Below, piece after piece: positions 5,880 through 34,373 of a stretch of DNA of 64,000 nt. The stretch spans positions 805,501 to 869,500 of the forward strand of contig NZ_CP016464.1 in the NCBI RefSeq assembly GCF_001713455.1, given 5' to 3'. The notes under the pieces were generated by a model. That model saw only the letters and a program-made list of their open reading frames with translations. It was not told the DNA's origin and searched no databases. Within the stretch, counting starts at the first letter, position 1; every line of letters starts with the position of its first letter. The position numbers and the translations under genes were made by a program. Source of the DNA: Bosea sp. RAC05. GTDB lineage: Bacteria > Pseudomonadota > Alphaproteobacteria > Rhizobiales > Beijerinckiaceae.

Positions 5880-5891
5880 TTTGCATACAAT
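5880..5891 (+). promoter_or_regulatory. predicted GntR operator, site 1
   Basis: The sequence TTTGCATACAAT differs in one base from the ATTG-N4-CAAT palindrome found at the other amide units. It lies 39 bases before the small-partner gene at 5931. A weaker, more degenerate copy (core TGTATCCAA) occurs at 5830-5838. Its role as binding site for the GntR protein at 24464 is inferred. Confidence 0.55.
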
Positions 5892-5930
5892 ACTGCGACG
5901 TTCTTGATGTGCTGGAGAGAGGAGAGAGGC

Positions 5931-6137
5931 ATGCAGACCCCGCTGCGGGAGATCGTGGCCGTCCAGGCGCGGACCTGGTCAGGCATTGAACAGCCCAATG
6001 AGGCGGCCGGCATCATGGCCGATGCGCTGGCCGCCAGCATCGCCGGATTCACCGCGCTGCGCGGGCAGCTCGCCTTCGAGGACGAGCCGTCGAGCTTCGA
6101 GGCCGCGCTCCAGGAAACGAAGGAGCCGCAGCCATGA
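5931..6137 (+). CDS. AtzG-like small amidase partner 1
   Basis: A 68-residue acidic helical protein with the C-terminal motif DEPSSFEAAL. Such proteins (AtzG/DUF4089, related to GatC) wrap around an amidase-signature subunit and stabilise it. It starts after a strong ribosome site (ggagagagg) and its stop overlaps the start of amidase 1 (ATGA), a typical GatC-GatA-like arrangement. The EP-x(2,3)-F motif recurs in the other four small proteins of the window. No enzymatic role is expected. Confidence 0.75.
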   Translation: MQTPLREIVAVQARTWSGIEQPNEAAGIMADALAASIAGFTALRGQLAFEDEPSSFEAALQETKEPQP

Positions 6138-7567
6138 ACGCCGCCGCGAAAAGCTCGCTCCTGCATCTCTCGCTGACCGACGCCGCCGACGCGCTGAAGG
6201 ACGGCTCCGTCACCGCCGTCGAACTCACCACCGTCGCGCTGGAAGCCTTCACCCGCGTCGACAAGGCGATCAATTCGGCGATCTGGCTGGAGGGCGCCGC
6301 CGCGCTCGAAGCCGCCGAGGCGCTCGACAAGAAGCGGAAATCGGGCGCGACGCTGGGTCCGCTCCACGGCCTGCCGCTGGCCCACAAGGACATGTACTAC
6401 AAGGCCGGCAAGCTCTCGACCTGCGGCTCCGCCATCCGCAAGGATTTCCGCCCGACCTATACCGCGACCGTGATGGAGCGGCTCGAGGAGGCCGGCTCGG
6501 TGACGCTCGGCGGGCTGAACATGGCCGAGTTCGCGCAGAATCCGACCGGCCACAACCAGCATTACGGCCATTGCCGCAATCCCTGGCATACGGATTACTG
6601 CACCGGCGGCTCCTCCTCCGGCTCGGGCGCGGCGGTTGCGGCGCGGCTGGTCTATGGCGCGCTCGGCTCCGACACCGGCGGCTCGATCCGTCTTCCCGCC
6701 GCGATCTGCGGCGTCACCGGCATCAAGGCGACGCAGACCCGCGTCTCGCGCCATGGCGTCATGCCGCTCTCCTTCTCGGCCGACAATGTCGGGCCGCTGA
6801 CGCAGACGGCCCGCGATGCCGCCCGCTTCCTCGGCGTGATCGCCGGGCATGATCCGAAAGATCCGACCTCGTCGGCCGAGCCGGTGCCGGACTACGAGGC
6901 GGCGCTGACCGGCGACATCCGGGGCATGCGCATCGGCGTCCCCACCAACTACTTCTTCGACGGCATCGACCCCGAGGTGCAGGCCGCCTTCGACGCCATG
7001 GTCGCTGTGTTGGAAGCCCGCGGCGCCGTCATCCTTCCGGTGACGATCCCGCATATGGACGCGGTTTCGACCTATGGCGGCATCGTCTCGCGCGTCGAGG
7101 GCGGCACGATCCATGCGCAATGGATGCGCGAGCGCCCGCAGGACTACGCCGTGCATCTCAGCGGCCGGCTCTATCCGTCGCAGGGCATTCCCGGCACCTA
7201 TTATCTCGAGGCGCTGGCGAGACGCGGGGCGATCCTGAAGGCGGTGGCGGCCGCGGTCTTCGGCGTCTGCGACGCCTTCATCACGCCGACGCTGCGGATG
7301 AAGGTGCCGACGCTGCTGGCGACCGACATCGACGCCGGCACGCCCGGCGCGATCGAGACCTTCCAGGACGTCTCGATCAACACGCGGCCGATCAACTATC
7401 TCGGCCTGCCCTCGGTCAGCGTGCCCTGCGGGCTCGATTCCAACGGCCTGCCGATCGGCTTCCAGATCCAGGGCCGCCCCTTCGCCGAGGCGCGCGTACT
7501 CAAGATCGCCGACGCCTATCAGCGCGATACCGACTGGCACCGCCGCCTCCCGCCGAACGTATCCTGA
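6134..7567 (+). CDS. amidase-signature hydrolase 1 (AtzE-like)
   Basis: A 477-residue amidase-signature enzyme. The catalytic triad is visible: Lys85 (LAHKDMY), cis-Ser160 (GGSSSGSG) and nucleophile Ser184 (DTGGSIRLPA). The family hydrolyses C-N amide bonds of diverse substrates; AtzE of s-triazine degraders acts on 1-carboxybiuret with AtzG. The substrate here is unknown. This copy is the most divergent of the six (HKDMYY instead of LKDI; no GGPSFDLPWP segment), so its substrate probably differs. It is translationally coupled to the upstream partner and followed by a kinase-like gene. Confidence 0.88.
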   Translation: MNAAAKSSLLHLSLTDAADALKDGSVTAVELTTVALEAFTRVDKAINSAIWLEGAAALEAAEALDKKRKSGATLGPLHGLPLAHKDMYYKAGKLSTCGSAIRKDFRPTYTATVMERLEEAGSVTLGGLNMAEFAQNPTGHNQHYGHCRNPWHTDYCTGGSSSGSGAAVAARLVYGALGSDTGGSIRLPAAICGVTGIKATQTRVSRHGVMPLSFSADNVGPLTQTARDAARFLGVIAGHDPKDPTSSAEPVPDYEAALTGDIRGMRIGVPTNYFFDGIDPEVQAAFDAMVAVLEARGAVILPVTIPHMDAVSTYGGIVSRVEGGTIHAQWMRERPQDYAVHLSGRLYPSQGIPGTYYLEALARRGAILKAVAAAVFGVCDAFITPTLRMKVPTLLATDIDAGTPGAIETFQDVSINTRPINYLGLPSVSVPCGLDSNGLPIGFQIQGRPFAEARVLKIADAYQRDTDWHRRLPPNVS

Positions 7568-7628
7568 TGGCTTGGCGCCGGCGGTCGCCAGCAGGCGGCC
7601 GCCGGTTCAAGCCCTGGCACCGCCTGTG

Positions 7629-8540
7629 ATGACCGTGGCCACGCTGCATGCCGACGAGGCCGAGATCGACGCCGCTCTCGTCGGCCGGCTCGTCGCCAGC
7701 CGGTTTCCGCTCTGGCGCGACCTGCCCCTGAGGCGCATCGCCTCGAGCGGCACCGACAACGCCATGTTTCGGCTCGGCCGGCACCTCTGTCTGCGCCTGC
7801 CGCGCTATCCGGCCGCGGCCGCACTCCTTGACAAGGAGCAGCACTGGCTGCCGCGCCTGGCGCCTCACTTGCCGCTCGCCATTCCCGTCCCTCTCGCCAC
7901 GGCCCCGCCAGGCGAGGGTTATCCGTTTGCCTGGTCGGTCTGCCGCTGGATCCCCGGCGAGGACGCTCATCGCGGCAGCATACGTGACCGCAACGGGGCG
8001 GCGCTGACGCTCGCGCGCTTCATCCAGGCGCTCCAGGCGATCGACCCGTCGGAGGGGCCGCGCAGCGGCAGCGCCGGTGTCGAGCGCGGCGTGCCACTGC
8101 TCGAACGCGACGAGCGGGTCAGGCAGGCGATCGCAGCCCTCGCCGGCGACATCGATGTCGTCGCGGTTACACGAGCCTGGGACGCCGCGCTGGCCGCGTC
8201 GCCCTGGCGCGGACCGCCCGTCTGGCTGCATGGCGACCTCCACCCCGGCAACCTGCTGCTGCGGAACGGCGCGCTCGTCGCGGTGATCGACTTCGGCGGC
8301 CTCGGCGTCGGCGATCCGGCCTGCGACCTGCTGCCCGCCTGGACGCTCTTCTCGGCCTCGGAACGCCGGATCTTTCGGGCGCAGCTTGCCTGCGACGAAG
8401 CCGGCTGGGCACGAGGAAAAGGCTGGGCCTTGTCGATCGCCCTGATCGCATGGCCCTATTATCGCGACACCAACCCCGGAATCGTGGACATGGCCCGCCG
8501 CACGATCGAGCGGGTCCTGGCCGATGAAGGGTCTCGCTGA
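7629..8540 (+). CDS. APH-family phosphotransferase (small-molecule kinase)
   Basis: A 303-residue protein of the aminoglycoside phosphotransferase/choline kinase fold. The catalytic loop HGDLHPGNLLL and metal motif IDFGGLGVGDPACDL are intact, and the N-terminal lobe carries LRLPR where a nucleotide-binding Lys/Arg is expected. The start at 7629 is chosen because homology begins soon after it; an upstream in-frame ATG at 7572 would add 19 residues. It is the last gene of the first amide unit and is convergent with the SDR gene. The substrate cannot be told; calling it an antibiotic-resistance gene would be unsupported. Confidence 0.75.
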   Translation: MTVATLHADEAEIDAALVGRLVASRFPLWRDLPLRRIASSGTDNAMFRLGRHLCLRLPRYPAAAALLDKEQHWLPRLAPHLPLAIPVPLATAPPGEGYPFAWSVCRWIPGEDAHRGSIRDRNGAALTLARFIQALQAIDPSEGPRSGSAGVERGVPLLERDERVRQAIAALAGDIDVVAVTRAWDAALAASPWRGPPVWLHGDLHPGNLLLRNGALVAVIDFGGLGVGDPACDLLPAWTLFSASERRIFRAQLACDEAGWARGKGWALSIALIAWPYYRDTNPGIVDMARRTIERVLADEGSR

Positions 8541-8564: not shown

Positions 8565-9344
8565 TCAGCGGATCGAGGGACGCCGCTGGCCGCCATCGAC
8601 CTGGATGTCGGCCGCATTGATGCCCGCGGCGCGCGGCGAGACGACGAAGGCGATCGCGTCGGCGATCTCCTGGACGGTGCTCAGCCGTTTCGCCGGAAAA
8701 TCCTCCGCCTCGAACTTGGCGAAATCCTCGGGCCGCTCGGTCCTGGTCTTTTCCCAGCCCCCGCCGGGGAAGATCGTCGAGCCCGGTGAGACCGCGTTCA
8801 CGCGGATGCCGTGGGACCCCAGCTCCCAGGCCAGCGAGCGCGCGGCATGGATCAGCCCCGCCTTGGCGGCGGCATATTGCGCACCGCGCGCGGCCGGAGC
8901 GCGCCCCGAGATCGAGGCGACGAAGACGGCGTTGCCGATGTCGCTGCGGGTGAGCGCGGGCGTCGCTTCGCGTAGCGCCGCGATCGCATGGCCGACATTG
9001 AAGCGGAAGGTCTCGTCCCAGTCGGCGTCGCTGCTGTTTGCCAACTCGCGCTCGCCGAAGCTGCCGCCGGCATTGGCGATCAGGATGTCGAGCCCACCAT
9101 AGGTCGCGACCGTCTCGGCGACGGCCCGCGCCGACTCGGCGGGATCGCGGAAATCCGCCTGGATGGTGAGAACCTCGCCGCCTGCGGCCCTGATCTCGGC
9201 CGCGGTTGCGGCCAGCGTCTCCGCCCCACGCGCGGCGATGGCGAGGCGGGCGCCCTCGCCGGCGAGCAGCAGGGCGGTGGCCTTGCCGATGCCGCGGCTG
9301 CCGCCGGTGATCAGCGCGATCTTCCCCTTCAGACCCAGATCCAT
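8565..9344 (-). CDS. short-chain dehydrogenase/reductase
   Basis: A 259-residue classical SDR with the NAD(P)-binding motif TGGSRGIG (residues 14-21), NAGG at the end of beta-4, catalytic Ser in VASISGR and the YAAAK pair. The C-terminal IQVDGGQ strand is typical. It is the last gene of a five-gene minus-strand unit (partner 2, amidase 2, EamA carrier, acetamidase, SDR) and starts one base after the acetamidase stop, so translation is probably coupled. It may act on the alcohol or keto part of the amide substrate; that is a guess from context. Confidence 0.85.
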   Translation of the reverse strand: MDLGLKGKIALITGGSRGIGKATALLLAGEGARLAIAARGAETLAATAAEIRAAGGEVLTIQADFRDPAESARAVAETVATYGGLDILIANAGGSFGERELANSSDADWDETFRFNVGHAIAALREATPALTRSDIGNAVFVASISGRAPAARGAQYAAAKAGLIHAARSLAWELGSHGIRVNAVSPGSTIFPGGGWEKTRTERPEDFAKFEAEDFPAKRLSTVQEIADAIAFVVSPRAAGINAADIQVDGGQRRPSIR

Positions 9345-9345: not shown

Positions 9346-10299
9346 TCAGGCCGCCTTCGGAGCGAGAAGCTTCTTGGCGAGCATGCAGTGGATGCCCTTC
9401 GAGCCGTTCACCGTCTGCGTCACCCGCAGATCGGCAGCGATCGAGCACAGCGTATAGGCGTCCTCGCGCGAGAGGCCGGCCACCTCGCCGATCAGCACGA
9501 TCATGTCGCGCAGCGCCATCTCGGCGCAGCGGTCGAGATCGGGGTCCATGCCCATGGTCAGGTAATGCGTCGGCGTCTCCGCCCGCGGATAGGTGAAGGC
9601 GAGGTCCTCGCGCAGGATGAAGGTGAAGCGGCCCTGCAGCGCGGTTTCGATCGCCGTGACGCAGACCTCGCCGTCGCCCTGCGCCGCATGGCCGTCGCCG
9701 CAGGAGAACAGCCCGCCCTCGACGAAGACCGGCAGGAAGATCGTCGCGCCCGCGACCATCTCCTTGTTGTCGAGATTGCCGCCGAAGGCGCGCGGCACGA
9801 TCGAGGTCACGCGGCCCCAGGCCGGCGGCGGTGCCGTGCCCATCACCCCGAAGAAGGGCGCGAGCTCGAGTTCAAGGCCCCAGGGCAGCTTGCCGATCTT
9901 GGCGTTGAGGTCGAGCGGAATGTGCAGCAGCCGCGTGGCGTGGAAATCGCTCTGCAGCGTGCCGGCGAGCGGGCGGATGACATTGTAGCCCCAGTCCTGC
10001 CGGAGCTGGATGTCCTCGATCCGCACCTCCAGCACATGGCCGGGCTTGGCACCCTCGACGGCGATGGGCCCGGTCAGGATATGCCCGGGCAGGGTCTTCT
10101 CGGCATGGGCATGGACATCGGCGATCTCGGGCGGGGTGGTGAAGCCGCTGCCCTGCTTGGGGTGGACCTCCGGCGCGCCCGTCACCGTATCGACCGTGAC
10201 CGTGTCGCCGCTGGCGATCACGAGCTTCGGCTTCAGCGCCGCGTCAAAAAAGCCCCAATGGCAGGTCGCGCCGCTGGCTTTCAGGTGGTGATGGGTCAT
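9346..10299 (-). CDS. acetamidase/formamidase (FmdA/AmdA family)
   Basis: A 317-residue member of the FmdA/AmdA family, zinc-type hydrolases that release ammonia from formamide, acetamide or similar short amides. Family hallmarks are clear: HPKQGSGF, GGNLDNKE and GDGHAAQGDGEVCVTAIE. The fold is unrelated to the amidase-signature enzymes beside it, so the region combines several amide-hydrolysing chemistries. It lies between an EamA carrier gene and an SDR gene on the minus strand. The substrate is not identifiable by eye, but a small amide product of the upstream amidases is plausible. Confidence 0.88.
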   Translation of the reverse strand: MTHHHLKASGATCHWGFFDAALKPKLVIASGDTVTVDTVTGAPEVHPKQGSGFTTPPEIADVHAHAEKTLPGHILTGPIAVEGAKPGHVLEVRIEDIQLRQDWGYNVIRPLAGTLQSDFHATRLLHIPLDLNAKIGKLPWGLELELAPFFGVMGTAPPPAWGRVTSIVPRAFGGNLDNKEMVAGATIFLPVFVEGGLFSCGDGHAAQGDGEVCVTAIETALQGRFTFILREDLAFTYPRAETPTHYLTMGMDPDLDRCAEMALRDMIVLIGEVAGLSREDAYTLCSIAADLRVTQTVNGSKGIHCMLAKKLLAPKAA

Positions 10300-10330: not shown

Positions 10331-11437
10331 TCAGGCGGGCGGGTTGTCCGGCAGCGGCGTGGCGGCCAGGCGGCGCGCGCCGGCATTGTGGCGCATCGTG
10401 TAGATCGTGCCGCCGGCCACCAACGCAGCGCCGACGATGGTGACGAGATTGGGCAGCTCGGCGAAGACGAGATAGCCGCTCACCGTCGCCAGCAGCAGGC
10501 GGACGAAGTCGAGCGGGGCCAGCGCCGAGGCCTCGCCCATCTGGTAGGCGCGGGTGACGAGCCATTGCCCGGCCGTGCCGACGACGCCGATCCCGACCAT
10601 CAGCGCCCATTCGGCCGGTGTCGGCGGCGTCCACAGGAAGACGGCGGGCAAGCCCAGCGCGATCAGCACCACCGCGCCCTGCCAGAACAGGATCGTCTCG
10701 GTGCGCTCGGACTGGCCGAGCACGCGCACCGAGATGGTGATGCCGGCCCCGAACAGCGCGCCGAGGATGGCGAGCAGTGCATAGCCGTTCATCGCCTCGC
10801 CGCCCGGCCGCAGCATGACGAAGACCCCGGCGAAGCCGATCGCCAGGGCGATCCAGCGCCGCCGGTCGACGACCTCGCGCAGGATGAGGATGGCGAGCAG
10901 CGTCACGAACAGCACCTGCGCGAAGCCCAGCGCCGTCGCCTCCGCCATCGGCAGATGGATCAGTGCCGTGAAACCGCAGAGCATGGCGCCGAGCGAGAAC
11001 ATCCCCCGCAGGAACTGCAGCCCCGGGCGGCTGGTGTGCATGATCCGCGGCAGGGCGCGGCCCACCACCATTGCCAGGATCAGCGTCATCACCAGCTGCC
11101 GGACGATCAGGATCTGCGGCAGGGGGATGCGTCCGCCGGCCAGCTTGATCAGCGTCATCATCACCGCGAAGGCGGTGAAGGCGGCGATCATCAACAGCGA
11201 GCCGCGCAGATTGGGCGTGGCCGCCAGCCACCAGCCGCGGGCGCGCTCCAGAGGACGTCGTCGCGCCGTCGGCAGGGCGTTCGCCGCAGCCGGCAGGGCG
11301 CTGGCGGCGAGGATCGAAGCGGCGGCCGCGAGGCTGTCCGCCGAGGCCTCGACGGTAACAAGCTCCGGAGCGGGATCCGGCTGCGCCTCGTCGGGGAGGA
11401 AGGCAACGGCGCGCGCCCCGGAATCATCCTCGCTCAT
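10331..11437 (-). CDS. EamA/DMT-type membrane carrier 1
   Basis: A drug/metabolite transporter superfamily protein with about ten hydrophobic segments arranged as two EamA repeats (from about residue 80). As annotated (368 residues) it has a long Ala-rich, non-membrane N-terminal stretch of about 75 residues, longer than usual, so a later start is possible. It lies 37 bases after amidase 2 and before acetamidase in the same unit. Two further carriers of this family occur in the window (22178 and 26894), each beside amide hydrolase genes. The direction of transport and the substrate are unknown. Confidence 0.82.
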   Translation of the reverse strand: MSEDDSGARAVAFLPDEAQPDPAPELVTVEASADSLAAAASILAASALPAAANALPTARRRPLERARGWWLAATPNLRGSLLMIAAFTAFAVMMTLIKLAGGRIPLPQILIVRQLVMTLILAMVVGRALPRIMHTSRPGLQFLRGMFSLGAMLCGFTALIHLPMAEATALGFAQVLFVTLLAILILREVVDRRRWIALAIGFAGVFVMLRPGGEAMNGYALLAILGALFGAGITISVRVLGQSERTETILFWQGAVVLIALGLPAVFLWTPPTPAEWALMVGIGVVGTAGQWLVTRAYQMGEASALAPLDFVRLLLATVSGYLVFAELPNLVTIVGAALVAGGTIYTMRHNAGARRLAATPLPDNPPA

Positions 11438-11474: not shown

Positions 11475-12908
11475 TCATGCTGCTTGCCTGAGCGTGGCTG
11501 TCGTCGGCCTCAGCCCCGTCAGGGCCAGCGCCTTCTCGATCTGCGCCCCGATGCGCAGCACCGTCGGCTCGTCGAAAGGCCGCCCGACGATCTGCACCGA
11601 AAGCGGCAGGCCCGAGGCCGAGAACCCGGCCGGCATCGATAGGGCGGGGTTGCCGGTCACGTTGAACGGCATGGTCTGGATCGGCCAGTTTGGCGGGAAG
11701 GCGTCCGACATGCTGTCGAAGCGTGCGGCCGGCGCCAGCGCCGAGGCGCAGAGGATCGCGTCGTACTGCTTGAGCAGCTGATGGTTGACCGCGACCGCCA
11801 GCTCCCGGCGCAGGCGATAGGCCTGGGTCAGGTCGGCGGCGCTCAGCGTCGCCCCCAGGATCATCCGGGTGAAGGTCAGACGGCCGAAATCGAGCGGCCG
11901 CTCGCGATAGTCCTTCTCGTGGATGGCGAAGGCCTCCGAGAACATGATCACCCGCCCGACCGCGTTGAACAGCTCGTAATCGGGGATCGTGACCTCTTCG
12001 ACGATCGCGCCGGCCTTCGCCAGCAGGGCGGCGGCCTTGTCGATGGCTGCGACGACCTCGGGCGAGACGCCCTCGGCCTGCGCGAAGAAATGACGCGGCA
12101 GCGCGATCCGGAGACCGGTCACATCGCCGTCGAGCCCGCTGCGGAAGTCAGGGGCGGGCACATCGGCGCTGGCGGGGTCGAGCGGATCATGGCCCGCGAT
12201 GACCTCCATGGTGATCGCGCTGTCCTCGACCGTCCAGCTCAGCGGGCCGCAATGGTCGAGCGTGTAGGAGAGCGGGAAGACGCCGCGCCGCGACACCAGC
12301 CCATAGGTCGGCTTCAGCCCGACCGTGCCGCAATAGGCGGCCGGCCCGCGGATCGAGCCGCCGGTGTCGGACCCCATCGCCATGCGGCACAGCCCCGCCG
12401 CCACCGCCGCGCCCGATCCTGAGGACGAGCCGCCGGGAATGTGCTCGGGGTTCCAGGGATTCCGTGCCGGCGGAAACGGCAGGTCGAAGCTCGGGCCGCC
12501 CAGCGCGAACTCATGCGTCGAGAGCTTGCCGAGCAGCACGCCGCCGCCGGCGTTGAGCTTCGCCGCCACGACGGAGTCGGCGGCGGGCACATTGTCGACC
12601 AGCAGCTTGGAGTGGCAGGTCGTGCGGATGCCGGCCGTGTCGTAGATGTCCTTCAGCGCATAGGGCACGCCCTGCATCGGGCCCGCGTCGATGCCCGCCT
12701 TGAAGGCGGCGTCGGCGGCTGCGGCATCGGTGAGCGCGCGCTCGGCGGTGACGGTGATGAAGCTGTTCAGGGCGCCGTCCAGCGCGGCGATCCGCGCCAG
12801 CGCGTCCTGCGCGAGCGCGGTCGCCGTCACCTCGCCCGCACGCAGGGCGGCGCCGGCCTCGGCGATGGAGAGTTCGTGCAGCGGTTTGGCGATCAAGGTC
12901 GCGGACAT
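11475..12908 (-). CDS. amidase-signature hydrolase 2
   Basis: A 477-residue amidase with an intact triad: Lys86 (YALKDIY), cis-Ser161 (GGSSSGSG) and Ser185 (DTGGSIRGPA). It shares the segment GGPSFDLPFPPARNPWN with amidases 3-6 and so belongs to the same paralogous set, unlike amidase 1. It starts one base after the stop of its small partner (12910-13119). The substrate is unknown; family members act on carboxybiuret, allophanate-like, aryl or short-chain amides. An operator-like palindrome lies upstream of the unit at 13184. Confidence 0.88.
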   Translation of the reverse strand: MSATLIAKPLHELSIAEAGAALRAGEVTATALAQDALARIAALDGALNSFITVTAERALTDAAAADAAFKAGIDAGPMQGVPYALKDIYDTAGIRTTCHSKLLVDNVPAADSVVAAKLNAGGGVLLGKLSTHEFALGGPSFDLPFPPARNPWNPEHIPGGSSSGSGAAVAAGLCRMAMGSDTGGSIRGPAAYCGTVGLKPTYGLVSRRGVFPLSYTLDHCGPLSWTVEDSAITMEVIAGHDPLDPASADVPAPDFRSGLDGDVTGLRIALPRHFFAQAEGVSPEVVAAIDKAAALLAKAGAIVEEVTIPDYELFNAVGRVIMFSEAFAIHEKDYRERPLDFGRLTFTRMILGATLSAADLTQAYRLRRELAVAVNHQLLKQYDAILCASALAPAARFDSMSDAFPPNWPIQTMPFNVTGNPALSMPAGFSASGLPLSVQIVGRPFDEPTVLRIGAQIEKALALTGLRPTTATLRQAA

Positions 12909-13119: not shown

Positions 13120-13183
13120 CGCCCTGTCCCCTGGTCCGCTTTTGTCGGCCCGGTCGATGCAACCGCCATGCCATTCTCATGTC

Positions 13184-13195
13184 ATTGTATCCAAT
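13184..13195 (-). promoter_or_regulatory. predicted GntR operator, site 2
   Basis: A perfect 4-bp arm palindrome, ATTGTATCCAAT; read toward the amidase 2 unit it is ATTGGATACAAT, whose TACAAT part resembles a -10 box. It lies 65 bases upstream of partner gene 2. Confidence 0.65.
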
Positions 13196-13366: not shown

Positions 13367-13394
13367 TTGACGGCAATGCTGCATTGAATACAAT
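13367..13394 (+). promoter_or_regulatory. promoter overlapping GntR operator, site 3
   Basis: TTGACG (13367-13372), a 16-base spacer and TACAAT (13389-13394) form a good sigma70-like promoter. The operator palindrome ATTGAATACAAT (13383-13394) covers the -10 box, so a bound repressor would block it. It lies 109 bases before the isochorismatase gene at 13503. This is the only one of the sites with a convincing -35 box at the right distance. Confidence 0.62.
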
Positions 13395-13502
13395 CAATCG
13401 ATCTTGGCATGGGCTTTGCTGCGGCGCTGGGGCTATCGCCGGCGCGGCCCGAGGCGGGGCCTGAGCCGGCGCGACCCTCATCCCGTCGATCAGGAGCGTC
13501 CC

Positions 13503-14260: not shown

Positions 14261-14373
14261 CGTCGGGCCGCGCGGCCCCTTCGCCGGGCCGAGGCGGCGA
14301 AACATTGTGCAGCGCAGCATGGCGCGAGCGCCAAGCTGGCGGACATTGCCCGAACACGGGCCGTCTTGGCGAA

Positions 14374-14385
14374 ATTGTGTGCAAT
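14374..14385 (+). promoter_or_regulatory. predicted GntR operator, site 4
   Basis: ATTGTGTGCAAT, a perfect ATTG/CAAT palindrome with a variant centre. It lies 240 bases before the binding-protein gene. Confidence 0.5.
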
Positions 14386-14522: not shown

Positions 14523-14534
14523 ATTGGACACAAT
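14523..14534 (+). promoter_or_regulatory. predicted GntR operator, site 5
   Basis: ATTGGACACAAT, again with perfect ATTG and CAAT arms, 80 bases before the binding-protein gene at 14614. It is spaced 149 bases from site 4. Confidence 0.58.
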
Positions 14535-16273: not shown

Positions 16274-16323
16274 CCTCCGAGCCCAAAGCGATCCAGGACC
16301 CGAGCCGACCGAAGGAGACCTCC

Positions 16324-26893: not shown

Positions 26894-27772
26894 CTAGAGC
26901 GGAACCTGGCGACGCTTGCGGTGCTCGTCCTGGAAGATGAAGACGGTCGCGCCCATCACGATCGCGGCGCCGACCAGCGCCCAGCGGTCGGGAATCTCCT
27001 GGTAGGCGAGCCAGGCGAACAGCGCGATGAAGGGCAGGCGGGCGAAGTCGAAGGGCATCACGGTCGAGGCCGGCGCATTGCGCAAGGCCAGGAACAGCGT
27101 CAGCCGGCCGACGAACATCGCCACCGCCATCACCACCAGGAACAGCATGATGTCGAAGGACGGCGTCCGCCAGTAGAGCACGGCGGGGATCAGGCCGGTG
27201 ACCACCGGGATCAGGGTGGTGACGGCGACGATGCGGCTGGTGCTCTCGATCTGCGTCAGCCGCTTCGAGATCAGATAGCTCGACGCCATCGACAGGGTCG
27301 AGATCATCAGCGCGATCGTGCCGGCGTCGAGCGCGACGAAGCCCGGCCGCGAGATCACCATCACGCCCACGAAGCCGACCAGCACGGCCGCCCAGCGGCT
27401 GCGCGAGACGCTCTCGCCAAGCAGGACCCCGGCCAGAGCCGTCACGATGATCGGCGCGGCGAAGGTCATCGCCGTGGCCTTGGCCAGCGGCACATGGGCG
27501 AGCGCGTAAAACCAGGTCAGGTTCGAGACGCAGCCGACGGCGGTCATGATCGCGTAGAGCCGGCGCTTCTCGCGCCGGTCCGGAAGGCCCGCTTCGGACC
27601 GCAGCTGCGGCCAGACGAAGACGAGCATGATCAGATTGGCCAGGAAGCTGATCTGGAACGGATGCAGCTCGGTCGCGATCTGCCGGACCAGCGAATTGCC
27701 ACCCGCCAGGAAGGCCGTGCTCAGGATCATCCAGAGGATGCCGGCCTGGACGGTGTTGCGGGCCTCGGCCAT
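26894..27772 (-). CDS. EamA/DMT-type membrane carrier 3
   Basis: A 292-residue ten-segment carrier with two EamA repeats, the first containing MTFAAPIIVTALAGVLLGE. It lies between amidase 4 upstream and partner 3 downstream on the minus strand. It is a paralogue, not a duplicate, of the two other carriers in the window: the loops and termini differ. The C-terminal tail is basic (DEHRKRRQ). Transport of amide substrates or products is suggested only by location. Confidence 0.85.
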   Translation of the reverse strand: MAEARNTVQAGILWMILSTAFLAGGNSLVRQIATELHPFQISFLANLIMLVFVWPQLRSEAGLPDRREKRRLYAIMTAVGCVSNLTWFYALAHVPLAKATAMTFAAPIIVTALAGVLLGESVSRSRWAAVLVGFVGVMVISRPGFVALDAGTIALMISTLSMASSYLISKRLTQIESTSRIVAVTTLIPVVTGLIPAVLYWRTPSFDIMLFLVVMAVAMFVGRLTLFLALRNAPASTVMPFDFARLPFIALFAWLAYQEIPDRWALVGAAIVMGATVFIFQDEHRKRRQVPL

Positions 27773-27841: not shown

Positions 27842-29248
27842 TCAGGCGGCGAGCAGGGCCGGCCGGGTCGCACGCCACTGGGTCGCCTGCTCATAGGCGT
27901 GGCCGAGCTGGAACACGGTCGTCTCGGCGAAGGGGTGCCCGACGAGCTGGATCGCGACCGGCAGCCCCGTTCCCGGCTCGTAGCCGGCGCAGAGCGCCAG
28001 CGCCGGCAGGCCGGTCACGTTGAAGGGCATGGTGATCGAGGGCTTCTGGTACATCAGCCATTTCGGCACCTTGTCGATCGGCTGCGCCGGGAAGGGCGAA
28101 CCGGCCGTCAGCAGCACGTCGATGCCGATCATCGCCTCCGCCACCGCGGCGCAGAGCTCCTGCCGGCGCCGCAGCGCCTGGACATAATCGCCGCCGGTCA
28201 AAAGCCCGCCCATGCTGATCCGGTCGCGCGCGATCTCGCCATAGAGCTCCGGCGTCGCCCGCAGATCCGCCTCGTGGATCGCGAAGGCTTCCGACGACAT
28301 GATGATCAGCCCCACCGCGGCGAAATCCATCAGCGGCGGCAGCGTCACCTCCTTGATGACGCAGCCGAGCGATCTGTAGACCGCGATCGCCTGCTCGATC
28401 GCCGCCAGCACGGGCGGCGCCGCCTGATGGTCGGTCTCGTGGAAATGGCGGATCACGCCGATGGTCTTGCCCTTCACCGTTTCGTCGAGCTTTTCGGTGA
28501 AGTCTGGGACGGCCACATCGGCACAGGCCGGATCGAGCGGGTCATGACCCGCCATCGCCTGCAGCATCAGCGCCGCATCCTCGACCGTCCAGCACATCGG
28601 CCCGGCATGATCGAGCGATTGCGACAGCGGCAGGATGCCCCGGCGCGAGAGCAGCCCATAGGTCGGCTTGATGCCGGCCAGCCCGCACAGCGAGGACGGG
28701 CTGCGGATCGAGCCGCCGGTGTCCGAGCCGGTCGCGCCCAGCACCATCCCGGCCGCGACTGCCGCGCCCGAGCCGGACGAGGAGCCGCCTGTCGTGCGCG
28801 CCGGGTCCCAGGGGTTGCGGGCGGGCAGCGTGAAAAGGTCGAAGGAGGGGCCGCCGATCGCGAATTCGAAAGTCCCGAGCTTGCCGGTGATGACCGCGCC
28901 GCTCTCGCGCAGCTTCGTCACGGTAAAGGCGTCCTCGGTCGGCACGCGACTCTTCAGCAGGTTGGAATGGGCCGTCGTCGCCACGCCGGCCGTGTCGTAG
29001 ATGTCCTTCAGCCCGACCGGGATGCCGTGCATCGGGCCGCGCGGCCCGCTTGTCCCGATCTCGACTTCGGCCGCCTCTGCCGCCTCCAGCGCCAGCTCCG
29101 GCGTGAAGGCGACATAGGTGCTCAAGGTCGCGTCGAGCGCCTCGGTTCGCGCGATGCAGGCCTTCGTCAGCTCGACCGGCGAGAGCTTGCGCTCCGCGAT
29201 CAGCGTCGAGGCCTCGCGGATGGTCAGCAGCGTGAGATCGCCGGTCAT
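27842..29248 (-). CDS. amidase-signature hydrolase 4
   Basis: A 468-residue amidase with Lys81 (VGLKDIY), cis-Ser156 (GGSSSGSG) and Ser180 (DTGGSIRSPS). The start at 29248 is chosen because it lies one base after the partner stop and gives the same N-terminus length as its paralogues; an upstream in-frame ATG at 29314 would run back into the partner gene. A variant FDLFTLPARNPWD replaces the FDLPWPP segment of its relatives, a possible substrate-pocket difference. Confidence 0.87.
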   Translation of the reverse strand: MTGDLTLLTIREASTLIAERKLSPVELTKACIARTEALDATLSTYVAFTPELALEAAEAAEVEIGTSGPRGPMHGIPVGLKDIYDTAGVATTAHSNLLKSRVPTEDAFTVTKLRESGAVITGKLGTFEFAIGGPSFDLFTLPARNPWDPARTTGGSSSGSGAAVAAGMVLGATGSDTGGSIRSPSSLCGLAGIKPTYGLLSRRGILPLSQSLDHAGPMCWTVEDAALMLQAMAGHDPLDPACADVAVPDFTEKLDETVKGKTIGVIRHFHETDHQAAPPVLAAIEQAIAVYRSLGCVIKEVTLPPLMDFAAVGLIIMSSEAFAIHEADLRATPELYGEIARDRISMGGLLTGGDYVQALRRRQELCAAVAEAMIGIDVLLTAGSPFPAQPIDKVPKWLMYQKPSITMPFNVTGLPALALCAGYEPGTGLPVAIQLVGHPFAETTVFQLGHAYEQATQWRATRPALLAA

Positions 29249-29249
29249 C

Positions 29250-29438
29250 TCAGCGGCCCGCCGGTGAAAAAATATGAGCCGGCTCGGCATCGTAGCCGCG
29301 GGGCTTGCGCACACGCTCCCGCATCGCCTGCAGCAGCATGTAGGCGCTGCGCATCTCGTCCATATGCTCGGGCTTGACGCGGATGCCGGCCCGGTCGAGC
29401 AGCACCTGGAAGGCTTCGGTCGAGATGGTCTCGCTCAT
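29250..29438 (-). CDS. AtzG-like small amidase partner 4
   Basis: A 62-residue helical protein ending in RGYDAEPAHIFSPAGR, with the EP-x3-F motif. The ATG at 29438 is preceded by ggag at six bases; a GTG at 29450 is in frame but overlaps that ribosome site. It ends one base before amidase 4. Its AGIRVKPEHMDEMRSAY segment resembles the AGFTLTPEQVAEYAEAY of partner 3. Confidence 0.75.
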   Translation of the reverse strand: MSETISTEAFQVLLDRAGIRVKPEHMDEMRSAYMLLQAMRERVRKPRGYDAEPAHIFSPAGR

Positions 29439-29471
29439 GATCGTCTCCACGAATGGGGGATAGGCACCGGG

Positions 29472-30890
29472 TCACTCGGCGGCGAGCGCCTGCTGCGCCC
29501 ATGGTGCCGGGCGCAGGTCGCGAAAGGCGGTGGCCTTCTCGAAGGCGCTGCCGACGCGCAGCACGAGATCGTCCTGGAAGGGCCGCCCGACGATCTGCAT
29601 GGCCAAGGGCAGCCCCGCCGCCGAGAATCCGGAACAGACCGACAGCGCCGGCGAGCCGGTCAGGTTGAAGACGCGGGTGAAGGAGGGCCGCGCCCGCGAC
29701 ATCATGTTGCCGAGGTCGCCGAGCTTGGGTGCGACGCCTGGCATGGTCGGACAGATCAGCACGTCGACCGTTTCGAACACGGTCGCGATCTCGGCGATCA
29801 GGCGGCCGCGCTCGCGCAGCGCGTTGACATAGTCGCAGGCCCGCACGAAGGCGCCCATCATGATGCGCTGGCGGGCGAGTTCGCCATAGAGTTCCGGCGT
29901 CGCCTTCAGCGTCTCCTCATGGAAGGCGAAGGCCTCCGAGCGCGAGATCAGCGTCGCCGCGTCGCCATAGGCCGACAGCGGCGAGAGCGTCACGTCCACC
30001 ACCTCGCAGCCCAGCTCCCGGAAGGTCACCAGCGCCGCCTCGATGCCGGCCTTGATCTCGGGGTCGGTCTCGGCGTCGCTCTCGAAGAAATGCCGGATGA
30101 CGCCGATGCGCAGCCCCTTCACGTCCTTCTGGAGGGAGCCGGCGAAATCGGGCTTGGCGACGTCGGCGCTGCCGGGGTCGAGCGGGTCGTGCTGCGCCAG
30201 CACCTCCATCATCAGCGCGCAATCCTCGCTGGTCCAGCACATCGGCCCGCCATGGTCGAGGCTGAAGGAGAGCGGCAGGATGCCCCGGCGGCTGACCAGC
30301 CCATAGGTCGGCTTCAGGCCGGAAATCCCACACCAGGCGGCCGGCCCGCGGATCGAGCCGCCGGTGTCGGTGCCCATCGAGCCCATGGCGAGCCCGGCCG
30401 CGATCGCCGCGCCCGAGCCTGAGGAGGAGCCGGCCGGATCATGGGCGAGGTTCCACGGGTTCTTTGCCGGCGGCCAGGGCAGGTCGAAGGAGGTGCCGCC
30501 GATCGCGAACTCCCAGGTCGAGAGCTTGCCGAGCAGGATGGTGCCGGCCTCCGCCAGAAGCCGCGTCGTCGTCGCGTCCTCCTCCGGAACATGGTCCTTG
30601 TAGAGAGCGGAATGGCCGGTCGTGGCGATGCCCTTGGTGTTGTAGATGTCCTTCAGCCCGATCGGCACGCCATGCAGCGGCCCCTTGTAGCCGCCCTTCA
30701 TGATCTCGCCCTCCGCCTTGCGCGCGGCCGCCATGGCCTGCTCGGGCAGCACGCGGAGATAGGCGTTGAGCTGCCCGTCGAAGGCGTCGATCCGGGAAAG
30801 GTAGGACGCGGTCAGTTCGACCGGGGAGAGTTTCTTCGCCTTCAGCAGCGGAGCGGCCTCGGCGATGGTCAAATCGTGCAGCGCGGTCAT
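29472..30890 (-). CDS. amidase-signature hydrolase 5
   Basis: A 472-residue amidase with Lys80 (IGLKDIY), cis-Ser155 (AGSSSGSG) and Ser179 (DTGGSIRGPA). The start at 30890 is preceded by a gaggg ribosome site; an in-frame ATG at 30902 overlaps the partner stop (ATGA) and is also possible. It shares GGTSFDLPWPPAKNPWN and SGLKPTYGLVSRRG with its paralogues. It lies between partner 5 and partner 4 in a chain of partner-amidase pairs. The substrate is unknown. Confidence 0.87.
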   Translation of the reverse strand: MTALHDLTIAEAAPLLKAKKLSPVELTASYLSRIDAFDGQLNAYLRVLPEQAMAAARKAEGEIMKGGYKGPLHGVPIGLKDIYNTKGIATTGHSALYKDHVPEEDATTTRLLAEAGTILLGKLSTWEFAIGGTSFDLPWPPAKNPWNLAHDPAGSSSGSGAAIAAGLAMGSMGTDTGGSIRGPAAWCGISGLKPTYGLVSRRGILPLSFSLDHGGPMCWTSEDCALMMEVLAQHDPLDPGSADVAKPDFAGSLQKDVKGLRIGVIRHFFESDAETDPEIKAGIEAALVTFRELGCEVVDVTLSPLSAYGDAATLISRSEAFAFHEETLKATPELYGELARQRIMMGAFVRACDYVNALRERGRLIAEIATVFETVDVLICPTMPGVAPKLGDLGNMMSRARPSFTRVFNLTGSPALSVCSGFSAAGLPLAMQIVGRPFQDDLVLRVGSAFEKATAFRDLRPAPWAQQALAAE

Positions 30891-30898
30891 GGCGGCCC

Positions 30899-31090
30899 TC
30901 ATTTGGTCCAGAGCCGGAGCGCGTGGACCGGCTCCTGCAGATAGCTGCGCTTGACGCGGATGTTGCGGGCGGCGGCTTCGAGATCGGCGGCCGCTCCTTT
31001 CAGGAACTCCAGCGTCTCCGGGCCGACTTTCAGGCCGTATTCGGCGAGCTTGGCCTCGATCGGGATCGGCGTGGCGGGCGTGTCGGTCAT
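30899..31090 (-). CDS. AtzG-like small amidase partner 5
   Basis: A 63-residue protein with the same two-helix layout as the other partners and a C-terminal RSYLQEPVHALRL. Here the EP motif is kept but the Phe position is Leu. A ggagg ribosome site precedes the start. It lies between amidase 6 upstream and amidase 5 downstream, and its position before amidase 5 matches the usual pair order. Confidence 0.72.
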   Translation of the reverse strand: MTDTPATPIPIEAKLAEYGLKVGPETLEFLKGAAADLEAAARNIRVKRSYLQEPVHALRLWTK

Positions 31091-31127
31091 GGCGGCCTCC
31101 GGGACGCGGCTGAAAGGAGAGGGTCGG

Positions 31128-32552
31128 TTATTCGGCGGCGAGGCTCATCGGCGCGGCGGCCTCCAGGGCAGGCCGCCGTTCCCGCCAGGCGGTCGCGGCC
31201 TCATAGGCCTGTGCCGCGCGGTAGATCGTCGCCTCGCCGAAGGCATGGCCGGCGATCTGGACCGAGAGCGGCAGGCCGGAGGCCGAGAAGCCGCAGCACA
31301 TCGTCAGCGAGGGCATGCCGGTGACGTTGAAGGGGATGGTCAGCGGCGGCTTGCTGAACAGGCCGAATTTCGGGATCTCGGTGATGACCGGGGCGGGCGT
31401 CGCGGTCGCCGCGCAGACGATGATGTCGAAGCGCGCCATCGTCTTCGCGACAGCCGCGACCAGTTCCGTGCGCATCCGCAACGCCTGGACATAGTCGCTG
31501 GCGTCGATCAGCCCGGCCAGCAGCAGCCGGTCGCGCAGGATCTCGCCATAGAGATCCGGCCTCGCCTGGATGTTGGGCTCATGGATGGCGAAAGCTTCGG
31601 AGAGCAGGATCATCATCCCGCAGGCGGCGAAATCGGCCAGCGGCGGCAGCGTCACCTCCTCGACCGTGGCGCCGAGATTCGCCAGCGTCGTGGCCACCCC
31701 GGCGACCGCGCCTTGCACCTCGTCCGTGGCCTCCGCCTGCGCCCCGAGCGAGGGGATATAGCCGACGCGCAGGCCCTTCACGCCGGCGCCCAGCAGCGCC
31801 TCGGGCGTCGGATCGGGCCGGTCGGCGCTGGCGGGGTCGAGCCGGTCATGGCCGGCGAGAACCTTCATGAGGAGGGCGTTGTCTTCGACCGTCCAGGTCA
31901 TCGGGCCGATATGGTCGAGGCTCTGCGAGAGCGGCAGCACGCCGCGCCGCGAGACCAGCCCATAGGTCGGCTTCATCCCGACGATGCCGCAGAAGGCGGC
32001 CGGCAGGCGGATCGAGCCGCCGGTGTCGGTGCCGAGCGCCGCCGGCACATAACCCGCCGCCACCGCGGCGCCTGAACCTGAGGACGAGCCGCCGGTGAAA
32101 TGCGCGAGGTTCCAGGGGTTTCGCGCCGGCGGGAAGGGCAGGTCGAAGGACGGCCCGCCCATGGCGAATTCATGGGTCGCGAGCTTGCCGAGGATGACGG
32201 CGCCCGCCGCCTTCAGTTTCTGCGTGACGAAGGCGTCGTCGGTCGCCCAGTTGTCGATGAGCTGGTGCGAATGGGCGGTGGTGCGCACGCCCTTGAGGTC
32301 GATGATGTCCTTCAGCCCGACGGGGACGCCATGCAGCGGCCCGCGGCTGATCCCGGCCATGACCTCGGCTTCCGCCTTCTTGGCCTGGGCGAGGGCGAGG
32401 TCGGCGGTCACCTCGATGAAGGCATGGGTCATCCCGTCGAGCGCCGCGACGCGGGCGATCAGCGCCTTCGTCAGCTCGACCGGGGAGACGCTCCTGGCCG
32501 CGATCCCCTTGGCCAGTTCTGAGACGGTCATGAAATGCAGCGGAGCGGACAT
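31128..32552 (-). CDS. amidase-signature hydrolase 6
   Basis: A 474-residue amidase with Lys81 (VGLKDII), cis-Ser156 (GGSSSGSG) and Ser180 (DTGGSIRLPA). The start at 32552 has a ggagg ribosome site eight bases upstream. It is the only one of the six with no small partner directly before it; the preceding gene is the second binding protein, 99 bases away. It may act alone, or share a partner with amidase 5. Otherwise it is a standard member of the paralogous set. Confidence 0.87.
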   Translation of the reverse strand: MSAPLHFMTVSELAKGIAARSVSPVELTKALIARVAALDGMTHAFIEVTADLALAQAKKAEAEVMAGISRGPLHGVPVGLKDIIDLKGVRTTAHSHQLIDNWATDDAFVTQKLKAAGAVILGKLATHEFAMGGPSFDLPFPPARNPWNLAHFTGGSSSGSGAAVAAGYVPAALGTDTGGSIRLPAAFCGIVGMKPTYGLVSRRGVLPLSQSLDHIGPMTWTVEDNALLMKVLAGHDRLDPASADRPDPTPEALLGAGVKGLRVGYIPSLGAQAEATDEVQGAVAGVATTLANLGATVEEVTLPPLADFAACGMMILLSEAFAIHEPNIQARPDLYGEILRDRLLLAGLIDASDYVQALRMRTELVAAVAKTMARFDIIVCAATATPAPVITEIPKFGLFSKPPLTIPFNVTGMPSLTMCCGFSASGLPLSVQIAGHAFGEATIYRAAQAYEAATAWRERRPALEAAAPMSLAAE

Positions 32553-32651
32553 GGCATGGGCCTCCTGACGGCGCCGACGGGCGGCGGGATCGAGCAAAGG
32601 GGTGGCGGCGGGGGCGGGCCGGGGAGGAGACCGCCCCCGCGCCGGTGACGA

Positions 32652-34283
32652 TCAGTCGAGGCTGATCGTCACGAAGTCCTGCATCCAGCTCTGGGCCGGC
32701 ACGAAGCCCTTGACCTTGGGCGACATCGCCCGCGGGTTCAGGTCGTGGACGATGAAGAGCCGGCCGGCCTGCTCGCTGACGATCTCGTGCAGCCGCGTGA
32801 ACATGGCGAGCGACTTCTCCGGCTCGAAGGTGTTCATCGCCTTCTCAGCCAGCTCGTCGAACTCCTTGTTCTCGAACCAGCCCCAGTTCAGCCCGCCGGG
32901 GGCCCGTCGCGCGGTCGAGAAATGGCTGATCATGCCGGAGACGGGGTCGACCGAGCCGAGCGAGATATTGATCGCGTCATAGGTCGGCGCGCGCTCCCAG
33001 CCCTTGAAGAACAGGTCGAGCAGGGCGTTCCAGTCGAGCACCTCGAACTTGACCCGGAAGCCGACCGCTTCGAGCTGCGCCTTGACCAGCTCGTTCATCG
33101 GCAGCGGCTGCATCTGGCCCGAGCCGGAGGTCGAGATGCCGACCGTGATGGCGCAGGGGTAGCAGCCGGCCTCCTTGAGCAGCGCGGTCGCCTTCTTGGG
33201 ATCGTAGGGATAGGTCTTCGGCTTGCCGTAGATCGCCTGGTACGGGGTGAACAGCGCCTCGCTCGCCTCGGCGATGCCGCCGAGCATCTCGACCATCTCC
33301 TTGCGGTCCATCGCATGGTTGGCCGCCTGGCGGACCTTGATGTCCTTGAAGGCGCCGCGCTGGAAATTGAACTGGTAGTGCCAGTTGTGCGGATAGGTCA
33401 GCGTCGTCACGCGCATGCCCGCTGCCTTCAGCCGCGGCAGCGTGTCGGGCGAGGGGGCCTCGATGAAATCGACCTGGCCCGAGAGCAGAGCCGCGGCCCG
33501 CGTCGTCGCCTCCGGCATCGGGATCAGCACCATCCGGTCGTGCTTGGGCGTGCGGGCCGGGTTCCAGTAATCTGCGTTGCGCACCAGCTCGAGCCGCTCG
33601 CGCGGCACGACCGAGCCGAACTTGTAGGGACCCGACCCCTGCGGCGAGAGCGCAAAGACCTTGTAGTCATAGCCCGCCTTCTCCAGCGCGCATTTCGAGA
33701 TCACAAACCAGACGGCCATGTTGTAGGGGAAGACCGACTCCGGGACCTTGGTGTCGACGGCGATGGTGTAGTCGTCGATCTTGACGGCGCCGGCGACGTT
33801 GACCGTGCGCGAGCGGTTGCGCGCGAAATGGACGGGATTGAACTGCGGCACCTTGTCGTCGGTGATGCGCGCGATGTTCCAGAGCGCGGCTTCCGCGTTC
33901 CAGGGGCAGCCATCGTGGAACTTCACGTCGCGCCGCAGCTCGAAGATCCAGCGCTTGTTGTTGGTGGGATCGGGATACCATTTCGAGGCGAGCCCCGCGG
34001 TCGGCACCGCCTCGCGGTCCGAGCGCGTCAGGTCCCAGTTCAGGAAGCTGTCATAGAGCGAGAAGCCGACGAAGCGCTGGCCTTCCGCGCCCTGGTCGGG
34101 ATGGCCGGTCCAGTCGGGAATGTCGCCGGCGGTCATCGCGACGCGCAGGACCTTTTCCTGGGCGAGCGCCGGGGCGGAGGGCGCCAGCGTGAGCGTGGCG
34201 CCGATGGCGAGCGCGGAAAGTGCCGCCGACACCCGGCAGGCGAGGTGGGAACGGAGCGTTGGGATGGAAGCCGGGAACCGCAT
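32652..34283 (-). CDS. ABC transporter substrate-binding protein 2 (family 5)
   Basis: A 543-residue periplasmic binding protein, paralogous to the one at 14614 along its whole length (VLRVAMTAGDIPDWTGHPDQ; SGSGQMQPLPMNELVK; PHNWHYQFNF). A signal peptide ends near PALAQ. The start at 34283 follows ggagg at six bases. It heads a nine-gene minus-strand unit of amidases but has no permease or ATPase genes of its own, so it probably delivers a different ligand to the single transporter encoded at 16324-20407. Confidence 0.92.
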   Translation of the reverse strand: MRFPASIPTLRSHLACRVSAALSALAIGATLTLAPSAPALAQEKVLRVAMTAGDIPDWTGHPDQGAEGQRFVGFSLYDSFLNWDLTRSDREAVPTAGLASKWYPDPTNNKRWIFELRRDVKFHDGCPWNAEAALWNIARITDDKVPQFNPVHFARNRSRTVNVAGAVKIDDYTIAVDTKVPESVFPYNMAVWFVISKCALEKAGYDYKVFALSPQGSGPYKFGSVVPRERLELVRNADYWNPARTPKHDRMVLIPMPEATTRAAALLSGQVDFIEAPSPDTLPRLKAAGMRVTTLTYPHNWHYQFNFQRGAFKDIKVRQAANHAMDRKEMVEMLGGIAEASEALFTPYQAIYGKPKTYPYDPKKATALLKEAGCYPCAITVGISTSGSGQMQPLPMNELVKAQLEAVGFRVKFEVLDWNALLDLFFKGWERAPTYDAINISLGSVDPVSGMISHFSTARRAPGGLNWGWFENKEFDELAEKAMNTFEPEKSLAMFTRLHEIVSEQAGRLFIVHDLNPRAMSPKVKGFVPAQSWMQDFVTISLD

Positions 34284-34361
34284 GCGAAACCTCCGGGCAG
34301 GATGGATGAGCCGCGAGGCGGCCTGATCCGGGCTCTGCAATGCGCGTGCCAAGGCGGCTTG

Positions 34362-34373
34362 ATTGTATGCAAT
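34362..34373 (-). promoter_or_regulatory. predicted GntR operator, site 7
   Basis: Read in the direction of the amidase unit, the sequence is ATTGCATACAAT, identical to site 6 in front of the GntR gene. It lies 79 bases before binding protein 2. Confidence 0.68.

Follow-up and report, generated by a model that had tools for sequence, protein, structure and literature searches.

Introduction

Atu1419 of Agrobacterium fabrum, a GntR protein of the FCD type and of the VanR group, is a tetramer (PDB 6Z74 and others) that binds ATGTATACAT at two sites located 190 bp apart, for which its authors propose a repression loop made by the tetramer. The operators published for the FadR subfamily carry TKGT/ACMA boxes. 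At sigma-54 promoters, DNA-bound proteins are able to quench enhancer looping in a manner that depends on the arrangement of their sites, as shown with synthetic enhancers, and natural sigma-54 enhancers of Vibrio tolerate length changes of about 11 bp. What is said of these and of other published systems refers throughout to the parts of the publications that were covered. The present analysis concerns a 64-kb stretch of the 5.62-Mb genome of Bosea sp. RAC05 (G000), hereafter the window, which represents 1.1% of this genome and carries a cluster of amidase, hydrolase and transporter genes, a GntR gene at position 24464 (hereafter gntR) and repeated copies of the palindrome ATTG-N4-CAAT.

We propose, with a probability of roughly 0.7, that operators of this FCD GntR protein, probably of the VanR group, gate gntR itself and five amide-nitrogen units with sigma-54 promoters. 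An earlier note on this DNA had tied about 25 genes into one GntR regulon, which remains the best reading and is well supported by the FCD protein, by the contact residues it shares with Atu1419 and by palindromes that travel with its orthologs, the binding itself being predicted. The same note had overlooked the promoter type: there is good support for saying that the promoters of five units look like sigma-54 promoters. The new element here is the pairing of predicted FCD GntR operators with predicted sigma-54 promoters, mostly in a fixed register within Bosea. Among the matches listed in the open literature (titles and abstract openings, and beyond these for PMC4740811), we found no description of FCD GntR operators at sigma-54 promoters.

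Palindromes and sigma-54 elements in a fixed register

The six perfect palindromes and the one-mismatch copy at 5880 all lie where the earlier note had placed them, and the window scan agrees with their position ahead of the units it had named. Six perfect copies compare with a mean of 0.48 and a maximum of 3 in 100 dinucleotide shuffles of the window, our background for palindrome counts. One-mismatch palindromes as a class are not above chance (17 in the window for a mean of 11.96, with 9 of the 100 shuffles reaching 17), and the 5880 site is counted because it is kept in all seven species in which the promoter of partner 1, a small protein, is readable (the G163 contig stops before reaching it). 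The genome holds the perfect palindrome at 26 places, six of them inside the window, against two places for the backwards control. The oriented sequence reported as shared by most sites, ATTGNATACAAT, is indeed found in four of the six perfect ones (those at 14374 and 14523 differ), and TACAAT closes five of the seven sites when these are read along transcription. Checked against the TKGT/ACMA consensus, each of the six perfect sites has TTGT (or ACAA) in one half, while in the other half TTG is followed by a different base.

The four best matches to sigma-54 -24/-12 elements in the window, at 34336(-), 14545(+), 13405(+) and 13158(-), each start exactly 10 nt past a perfect palindrome (four of the six perfect sites being concerned), and the fifth best, at 5870(+), overlaps the 5880 site. 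The first four promoters, those of partner 2, isochorismatase 1, the transporter and binding protein 2, yield 32 promoter-species pairs in eight Bosea species (class A). When elements were placed via GGCAY and TGC, without demanding T at -26 and T at -15, all 32 proved to read TGGCAY-N5-TTGC (GG at -24, GC at -12, 10 bp between them) and to carry both of these T. Operator positions, counted from predicted sigma-54 start sites, are centred on -42.5 in 30 of the 32 and on -43.5 in the other two, a register that is constant although spacer and flank sequences diverge across species. The pooled profile shows conserved blocks from -48 to -37 and from -26 to -11, weak conservation between and upstream of them, and no -35 block. 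At partner 1, the element matches the sigma-54 consensus bar the first T and the operator is centred on -10.5, both in 7/7 species. Predicted starts lie 35 nt before the start codon for partner 1, 28 for partner 2, 72 for isochorismatase 1, 43 for binding protein 1 and 42 for binding protein 2. Operators, sigma-54 elements, their register in eight species, their conservation and their co-occurrence with gntR are all read directly from the DNA.

The exact composite pattern, TTG-N4-CAA-N11-TGGCAY-N5-TTGC, occurs four times in the RAC05 genome, always in this cluster; two further places appear with one or two mismatches, and the backwards control with up to two mismatches gives two. The exact TGGCAYNNNNNTTGCW is found at 15 places (backwards control, 5), of which four are the cluster promoters and another is separated by 47 bp from a palindrome next to a GntR paralog of 49% identity. 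The core common to most operator sites, TTGNATNCAAT, has 11 distinct genomic places (backwards control, 0): five in the cluster, one beside the closest GntR paralog and five elsewhere. Among the latter, C2:1244717 sits within the largest open frame of its stretch, one place precedes an allophanate hydrolase gene, and the remaining three show no sigma-54 element in the 4 kb covered. At the allophanate hydrolase locus (G000:C2 ~3789370, stretch L171 1034-3822), this gene, preceded by TTGCATGCAAT, is divergent to a biuret-hydrolase-like gene (under the family cut-off), which is itself preceded by a weak sigma-54 element.

Paired operators

In the eight-species comparison, every sigma-54 unit has a further operator copy. 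The two sites are 52 bp apart at partner 1 (7/7 species), 84 or 85 bp at binding protein 2 (8/8) and 149-163 bp at the transporter unit (8/8, in two length classes of 149-151 and 161-163 bp), and the operators of the divergently transcribed partner 2 and isochorismatase 1 lie 195-209 bp from each other. These second copies are the main conserved upstream blocks in the alignments, as judged by eye, with TGTGCAGCGCAGCA as an exception; conservation is also seen on either side of the region that partner 2 and isochorismatase share. A sequence resembling TGTGCAGCGCAGCA, namely GCAGCGCTGC, adjoins the isochorismatase operator in several species.

Strict helical phasing was rejected, since distances of 52, 84-85, 198-200 and 209 bp come close to an integral number of 10.5-bp turns and those of 195 and 149-163 bp do not. 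As the operator pairs are not all at whole turns, looping is only suggested. The two transporter length classes differ by about 11 bp, the change that Vibrio enhancers tolerate, which is a weak hint in the same direction.

The regulator and a possible mechanism

The 24464 protein (PF00392, 53.9 bits; PF07729, 65.6 bits; both above cut-off) is an FCD-type GntR protein, as previously supposed. Its best solved relative is 6z74 (Atu1419; E 4e-25), whose DNA contacts E34, R45, T46 and R49 align with E29, R40, T41 and R44 and whose zinc ligands (Asn and three His) also align between the two proteins. The RAC05 genome has a single rpoN copy and 8 strong plus 3 weak PF00158 activator domains, the nearest about 20 kb past the window. 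A cluster-specific activator gene was not detected, there being no PF00158 match in the window or in the stretches covered of the seven further genomes that carry exact composites. The activator-gene pair at C2:2848339 and 2852209 presumably corresponds to NtrC and NtrX, given its arrangement. No structured RNA was retained, as the window has no Rfam match at gathering scores.

From these observations we infer binding, repression and looping by the GntR protein, together with an activator and a ligand, as follows. Sigma-54 polymerase would bind the -24/-12 elements and depend on an activator acting from a distance. When nitrogen is limiting this would probably be NtrC, a guess suggested by the role of the gene products in scavenging amide nitrogen. 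Without inducer, the GntR protein would occupy -42.5 at four units or -12 at partner 1, and a tetramer would probably bridge this site and the second operator copy, 52 to about 200 bp upstream. At -42.5, looped or not, it would lie in the path of the activator to the polymerase and so bar their contact, and at partner 1, bound at -10.5, it would mask the -12 element. An amide or a breakdown product would release the protein, which would also control its own gene. Because the GntR operator sits at a fixed place beside the sigma-54 promoter, expression of the genes probably requires nitrogen hunger as well as a GntR switch that has been released; the regulator is possibly a loop-forming tetramer like Atu1419. 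A more radical version strikes us as doubtful: the FCD GntR tetramer would lock a closed, activator-proof sigma-54 polymerase by means of the exact register and in-phase distal loops, and a diffusible activator (e.g. NtrC) would act from solution, with no dedicated activator site and with GntR operators giving all promoter specificity, which would amount to a distinct nitrogen-scavenging grammar in this order.

Conservation within Bosea and beyond

Orthologs of gntR with at least 89% identity exist in 8 of 67 Bosea genomes (G000 included); lower matches are found in G084 (82%) and in G150 and G168 (56%), and some match with an E value of 1e-20 or lower is found in 31 of the 67 genomes. The 30 exact composites of these 67 genomes all belong to the eight genomes with an ortholog of at least 89%. 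One-mismatch composites add 13, in G000, G011 and eight further genomes (backwards control, 5); G150 and G168 have one each, about 1.9 kb before gntR. In G084, the 40 kb round gntR hold only an FmdA homolog, gntR, short amd3 pieces and distant ATPase matches from the cluster, and the genome has no composite at one mismatch or fewer; ATTGGATACAGT (one mismatch) is retained 202 bp before gntR. A sigma-54 activator domain lies about 2 kb from this G084 gene (G084:C1:3690122-3690616).

The 49% paralog of RAC05 (G000:C2:2574472-2575621; L104 9473-10622) is preceded by ATTGCATGCAAT and ATTGTGTACAAA, and is transcribed divergently from an amidase-family gene that is followed by a binding-protein gene. 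Syntenic clusters also occur in another family of the order, with gntR at 50-51% and 10 perfect palindromes in 120 kb, although these come from three genomes of one genus (G312, G431 and G277) and are therefore partly the same sites; three of the 10, each from a different genome and located ahead of binding protein 1, form a composite at spacing 11-12. Thus the predicted operators travel with this GntR group, and their pairing with sigma-54 elements is tight in the eight Bosea species and looser beyond. Around a GntR homolog of 38% in G308, ATTGGATCCAAT occurs three times in about 1.3 kb.

Several results weigh against the proposed reading. The window scan detects no sigma-54 element at 14374, 24262 or 34749, the first two of which are to be counted here. 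One simple NtrC-like consensus gave no match beating shuffles in the five upstream regions of this genome: an NtrC-type enhancer was not retained, since for each region between 53 and 177 of the 200 shuffles did at least as well as its best match, and for this reason the identity of the activator is a guess. Weak scores are given to the distal copies at 5828 and 34446; the matrix behind these scores derives from sites of the window itself, and its intergenic assignments from an incomplete gene list, so that it is not taken as evidence. The transporter pair is off whole helical turns. The gntR site has perfect arms in the window only, those of 8 of the 9 close orthologs being imperfect, and a genome that shares gntR in these counts shares the cluster too, so that the two co-occurrences coincide. 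The register differs at the 49% paralog, where the amidase-family unit has a sigma-54 element with the palindrome at +41.5, and in the rearranged clusters of G150 and G168, where palindrome-like sites lie 10, 1 or 48 nt before sigma-54 elements and a strong sigma-54 match lies within 70 nt of two of the four perfect palindromes. Spacings in the other family are 11-12 and 4 nt, 7 of the 10 palindromes have no strong sigma-54 match within 70 nt, and two of the three gntR genes lack a TTG-N4-CAA site within 700 bp upstream. Such a site is found within this distance for 9 of 25 distant gntR relatives (34-51% identity; 28 homologs minus three Bosea orthologs), one of the 25 having a sigma-54 element there (1.5 kb of flank covered). 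Finally, the sole exact composite outside Bosea among 149 genomes of the family is in G079 (controls total 11). This copy (G079:C1:6106908-6106943) belongs to another genus and has a GC-rich core.

A universal -42.5 rule was thus rejected, as it fails in G150 and G168, in the other family and at the 49% paralog. An order-wide excess of spacing 11-12 (8 of 21 places outside Bosea) was not retained either: three of the eight are in the G312, G431 and G277 clusters and the remaining five fall within open frames 130 codons long or longer (from stop to stop), for which reason we do not claim this spacing as general.

Alternative explanations

The TTGACG-N16-TACAAT promoter described in the earlier note at 13367-13394 is present to the letter, and raises the possibility that the GntR site covers the -10 of sigma-70 promoters and acts by direct occlusion, the sigma-54-like sequences being coincidental. 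The TACAAT ending of most sites, the many palindromes of the other family without a sigma-54 match, and the AlkR and Atu1419 operators, which overlie -10 boxes in the VanR group, all fit this view, as does TTGACG before 13383 where it is kept. It is kept, however, in only five of the eight species (G192, G189 and G011 differ), whereas the sigma-54 element downstream is kept in all eight and recurs in 32 of 32 class A promoters; as these have no -35 block, a sigma-70 promoter under the palindrome was rejected. The five best sigma-54 matches of the 64 kb also fall exactly at these units, with predicted leaders that suit the start codons, so that we regard the sigma-70 explanation as very improbable. 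Rather than over sigma-70 -10 boxes, where it had been placed at enzyme and transport units, the operator would lie upstream of -24 or over -12 of promoters that look sigma-54 type.

Whether the palindrome belongs to the 24464 protein is a separate matter. GntR binding is a prediction only, co-occurrence cannot separate regulator from cluster, and the distant allophanate hydrolase gene is also preceded by such a site; another regulator encoded elsewhere (LysR-type or a nitrogen regulator, for example) could bind it, gntR being merely a regulon member. We consider this unlikely for several reasons. GntR is the only transcription-factor family among the cluster proteins scanned (the AbrB-named protein belongs to a membrane family and neither small partner matches any family above cut-off). 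In G084, which lacks most of the cluster, gntR has kept its site; the 49% paralog is accompanied by two sites of its own, and the sequence type fits VanR-group operators. A GntR protein that assists sigma-54 polymerase, aiding its recruitment from -42.5 or bending DNA for the activator, also seems quite improbable: the exact spacing at four unrelated promoters does exceed what simple blocking needs and no separate activator site was found in the upstream regions, but the site overlaps -12 at partner 1 and lies at +41.5 at the paralog, both typical of repression, and the characterised VanR-group relatives Atu1419 and AlkR repress. We thus favour the gating of sigma-54 units by the GntR protein.

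Organization of the cluster

The five sigma-54 units and gntR (Table 1) comprise 25 genes provided that the long runs of transporter and amidase genes are each transcribed as one unit, although gaps of up to 271 bp within the runs leave space for internal promoters. Partner 1 has no NCBIfam or Pfam match; going by position only, we liken it and partner 2 to AtzG. The 34749-34760 site (AATGGATACAATTT) has no convincing gene behind it on its own strand, and in G150 and G168 similar sites precede an amidase. Positions 62-4312, upstream of the amide cluster, hold genes of the molybdopterin oxidoreductase and flavocytochrome c sulfide dehydrogenase families, apparently a separate sulfur module.

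Table 1. Genes and predicted regulatory sites of the amide cluster, by position in the window (TSS, transcription start site; aa, amino acids)
Feature	Sequence	Position	Strand	Remarks
Weak distal operator, partner 1 unit	GATGTATCCAAA	5828..5839	+	centre -62.5; 52 bp upstream of proximal in 7/7; matrix score 7.8
Sigma-54 promoter, partner 1 unit	CGGCACGTCGTTTGCA	5870..5885	+	fifth best window match; kept in 7/7 species
Proximal operator, partner 1	TTTGCATACAAT	5880..5891	+	overlaps -12; centre -10.5
Partner 1, small protein, 68 aa		5931..6137	+	starts 35 nt past predicted TSS; homologs in relatives' clusters
AtzE-like amidase amd1		6134..7567	+	under curated AtzE cut-off
APH-fold phosphotransferase-family protein		7572..8540	+	family match
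Short-chain dehydrogenase		8565..9344	-	family match
FmdA/AmdA acetamidase-formamidase family		9346..10299	-	family match
EamA transporter 1		10331..11437	-	family match
AtzE-like amidase amd2		11475..12908	-	under curated AtzE cut-off
Partner 2, small protein, 69 aa		12910..13119	-	no NCBIfam match; one Pfam match under cut-off
Sigma-54 promoter, partner 2 unit	TGGCATGGCGGTTGCA	13158..13173	-	scan, species alignment
Operator, partner 2 unit	ATTGGATACAAT	13184..13195	-	centre -42.5
Operator, isochorismatase 1	ATTGAATACAAT	13383..13394	+	centre -42.5
Sigma-54 promoter, isochorismatase 1	TGGCATGGGCTTTGCT	13405..13420	+	scan, species alignment
Isochorismatase-fold hydrolase 1		13503..14210	+	family match
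Conserved block before transporter distal operator	TGTGCAGCGCAGCA	14306..14319	+	version in 8/8 aligned species
Distal operator, transporter unit	ATTGTGTGCAAT	14374..14385	+	8/8 species, 149-163 bp upstream of proximal
Proximal operator, transporter unit	ATTGGACACAAT	14523..14534	+	centre -42.5
Sigma-54 promoter, transporter unit	TGGCACGGCCCTTGCA	14545..14560	+	scan, species alignment
Binding protein 1 (SBP_bac_5)		14614..16230	+	family match
Two permeases and two ATPases, oligopeptide-type ABC transporter		16249..20407	+	starts approximate
Isochorismatase-fold hydrolase 2		20205..21140	+	true start probably inside open reading frame
Asparaginase family		21174..22175	+	family match
EamA transporter 2 and membrane protein with AbrB duplication (TIGR03082)		22172..24243	+	family match
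Operator of gntR	ATTGCATACAAT	24262..24273	+	perfect arms; site at -188 to -202 from ATG in 9/9 close orthologs; no sigma-54 promoter visible here
Possible second weak operator before gntR	GCTGTACACGAT	24365..24376	+	similar site at -94 to -99 among three best in 7/9 orthologs
GntR/FCD regulator, 233 aa		24464..25165	+	PF00392, PF07729; best solved relative 6z74
AtzE-like amidase amd3		25214..26623	-	under curated AtzE cut-off
EamA transporter 3		26894..27772	-	family match
Three amidases (27842-29314, 29472-30902, 31128-32597)		27842..32597	-	family match
Binding protein 2 (SBP_bac_5)		32652..34283	-	family match
Sigma-54 promoter, binding protein 2 unit	TGGCACGCGCATTGCA	34336..34351	-	scan, species alignment
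Operator, binding protein 2 unit	ATTGCATACAAT	34362..34373	-	centre -42.5
Weak distal operator, binding protein 2	CATGGATGCAAT	34446..34457	-	84 bp upstream; 8/8 species at 84 or 85 bp; matrix score 9.5
Further operator-like site	AATGGATACAAT	34749..34760	+	upstream of binding protein 2: 5/8 species exact, sixth (G165) as variant

Comparison with known systems

Sigma-54 promoters are usually explained by activators alone; at this locus, a GntR/FCD protein seems to impose a further gate that is specific to the substrate. Its putative operators stand in one register at four unrelated promoters, with variants reused by a paralog and in another family. With one regulator, five sigma-54 promoters and two operator positions, the way in which a repressor stops sigma-54 polymerase becomes testable, and the composite motif offers a tool for finding amide-nitrogen regulons.

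AtzR, with which the present regulator will be compared below, is a LysR-type protein. The regulator of the present cluster is of the GntR/FCD type and the locus does not, therefore, belong to the AtzR type.

With Atu1419 the locus shares contact residues, zinc ligands, a short A/T-rich palindrome and paired sites. The Atu1419 operator is, however, ATGTATACAT instead of ATTG-N4-CAAT, and this protein acts on hydroxycinnamic acid genes whose promoters are predicted to be of the -10/-35 type. AlkR of Pseudomonas aeruginosa, also of the VanR group, has very similar operator arms (ATTGTCAGACAAT), but these enclose five central bases instead of four, and it acts at the -10 boxes of alkane genes. 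The quenching of synthetic sigma-54 enhancers resembles the proposed mechanism in that a protein near a sigma-54 promoter blocks enhancer looping, with helical dependence; it concerns built systems or the qrr systems of Vibrio, however, and no GntR protein is named in the parts covered of those publications. Among the systems compared, the nearest published parallel is AtzR, which also acts at the sigma-54 promoters of an amidase pathway, though as a member of another regulator family: the atzDGEHF and atzRSTUVW genes of Pseudomonas sp. ADP combine an AtzE-type amidase, an ABC transporter and a pathway regulator, and the promoters concerned are induced by nitrogen starvation. With cyanuric acid, AtzR raises one operon and represses the other, whereas at the Bosea locus a GntR/FCD protein and paired palindromes would take this place.

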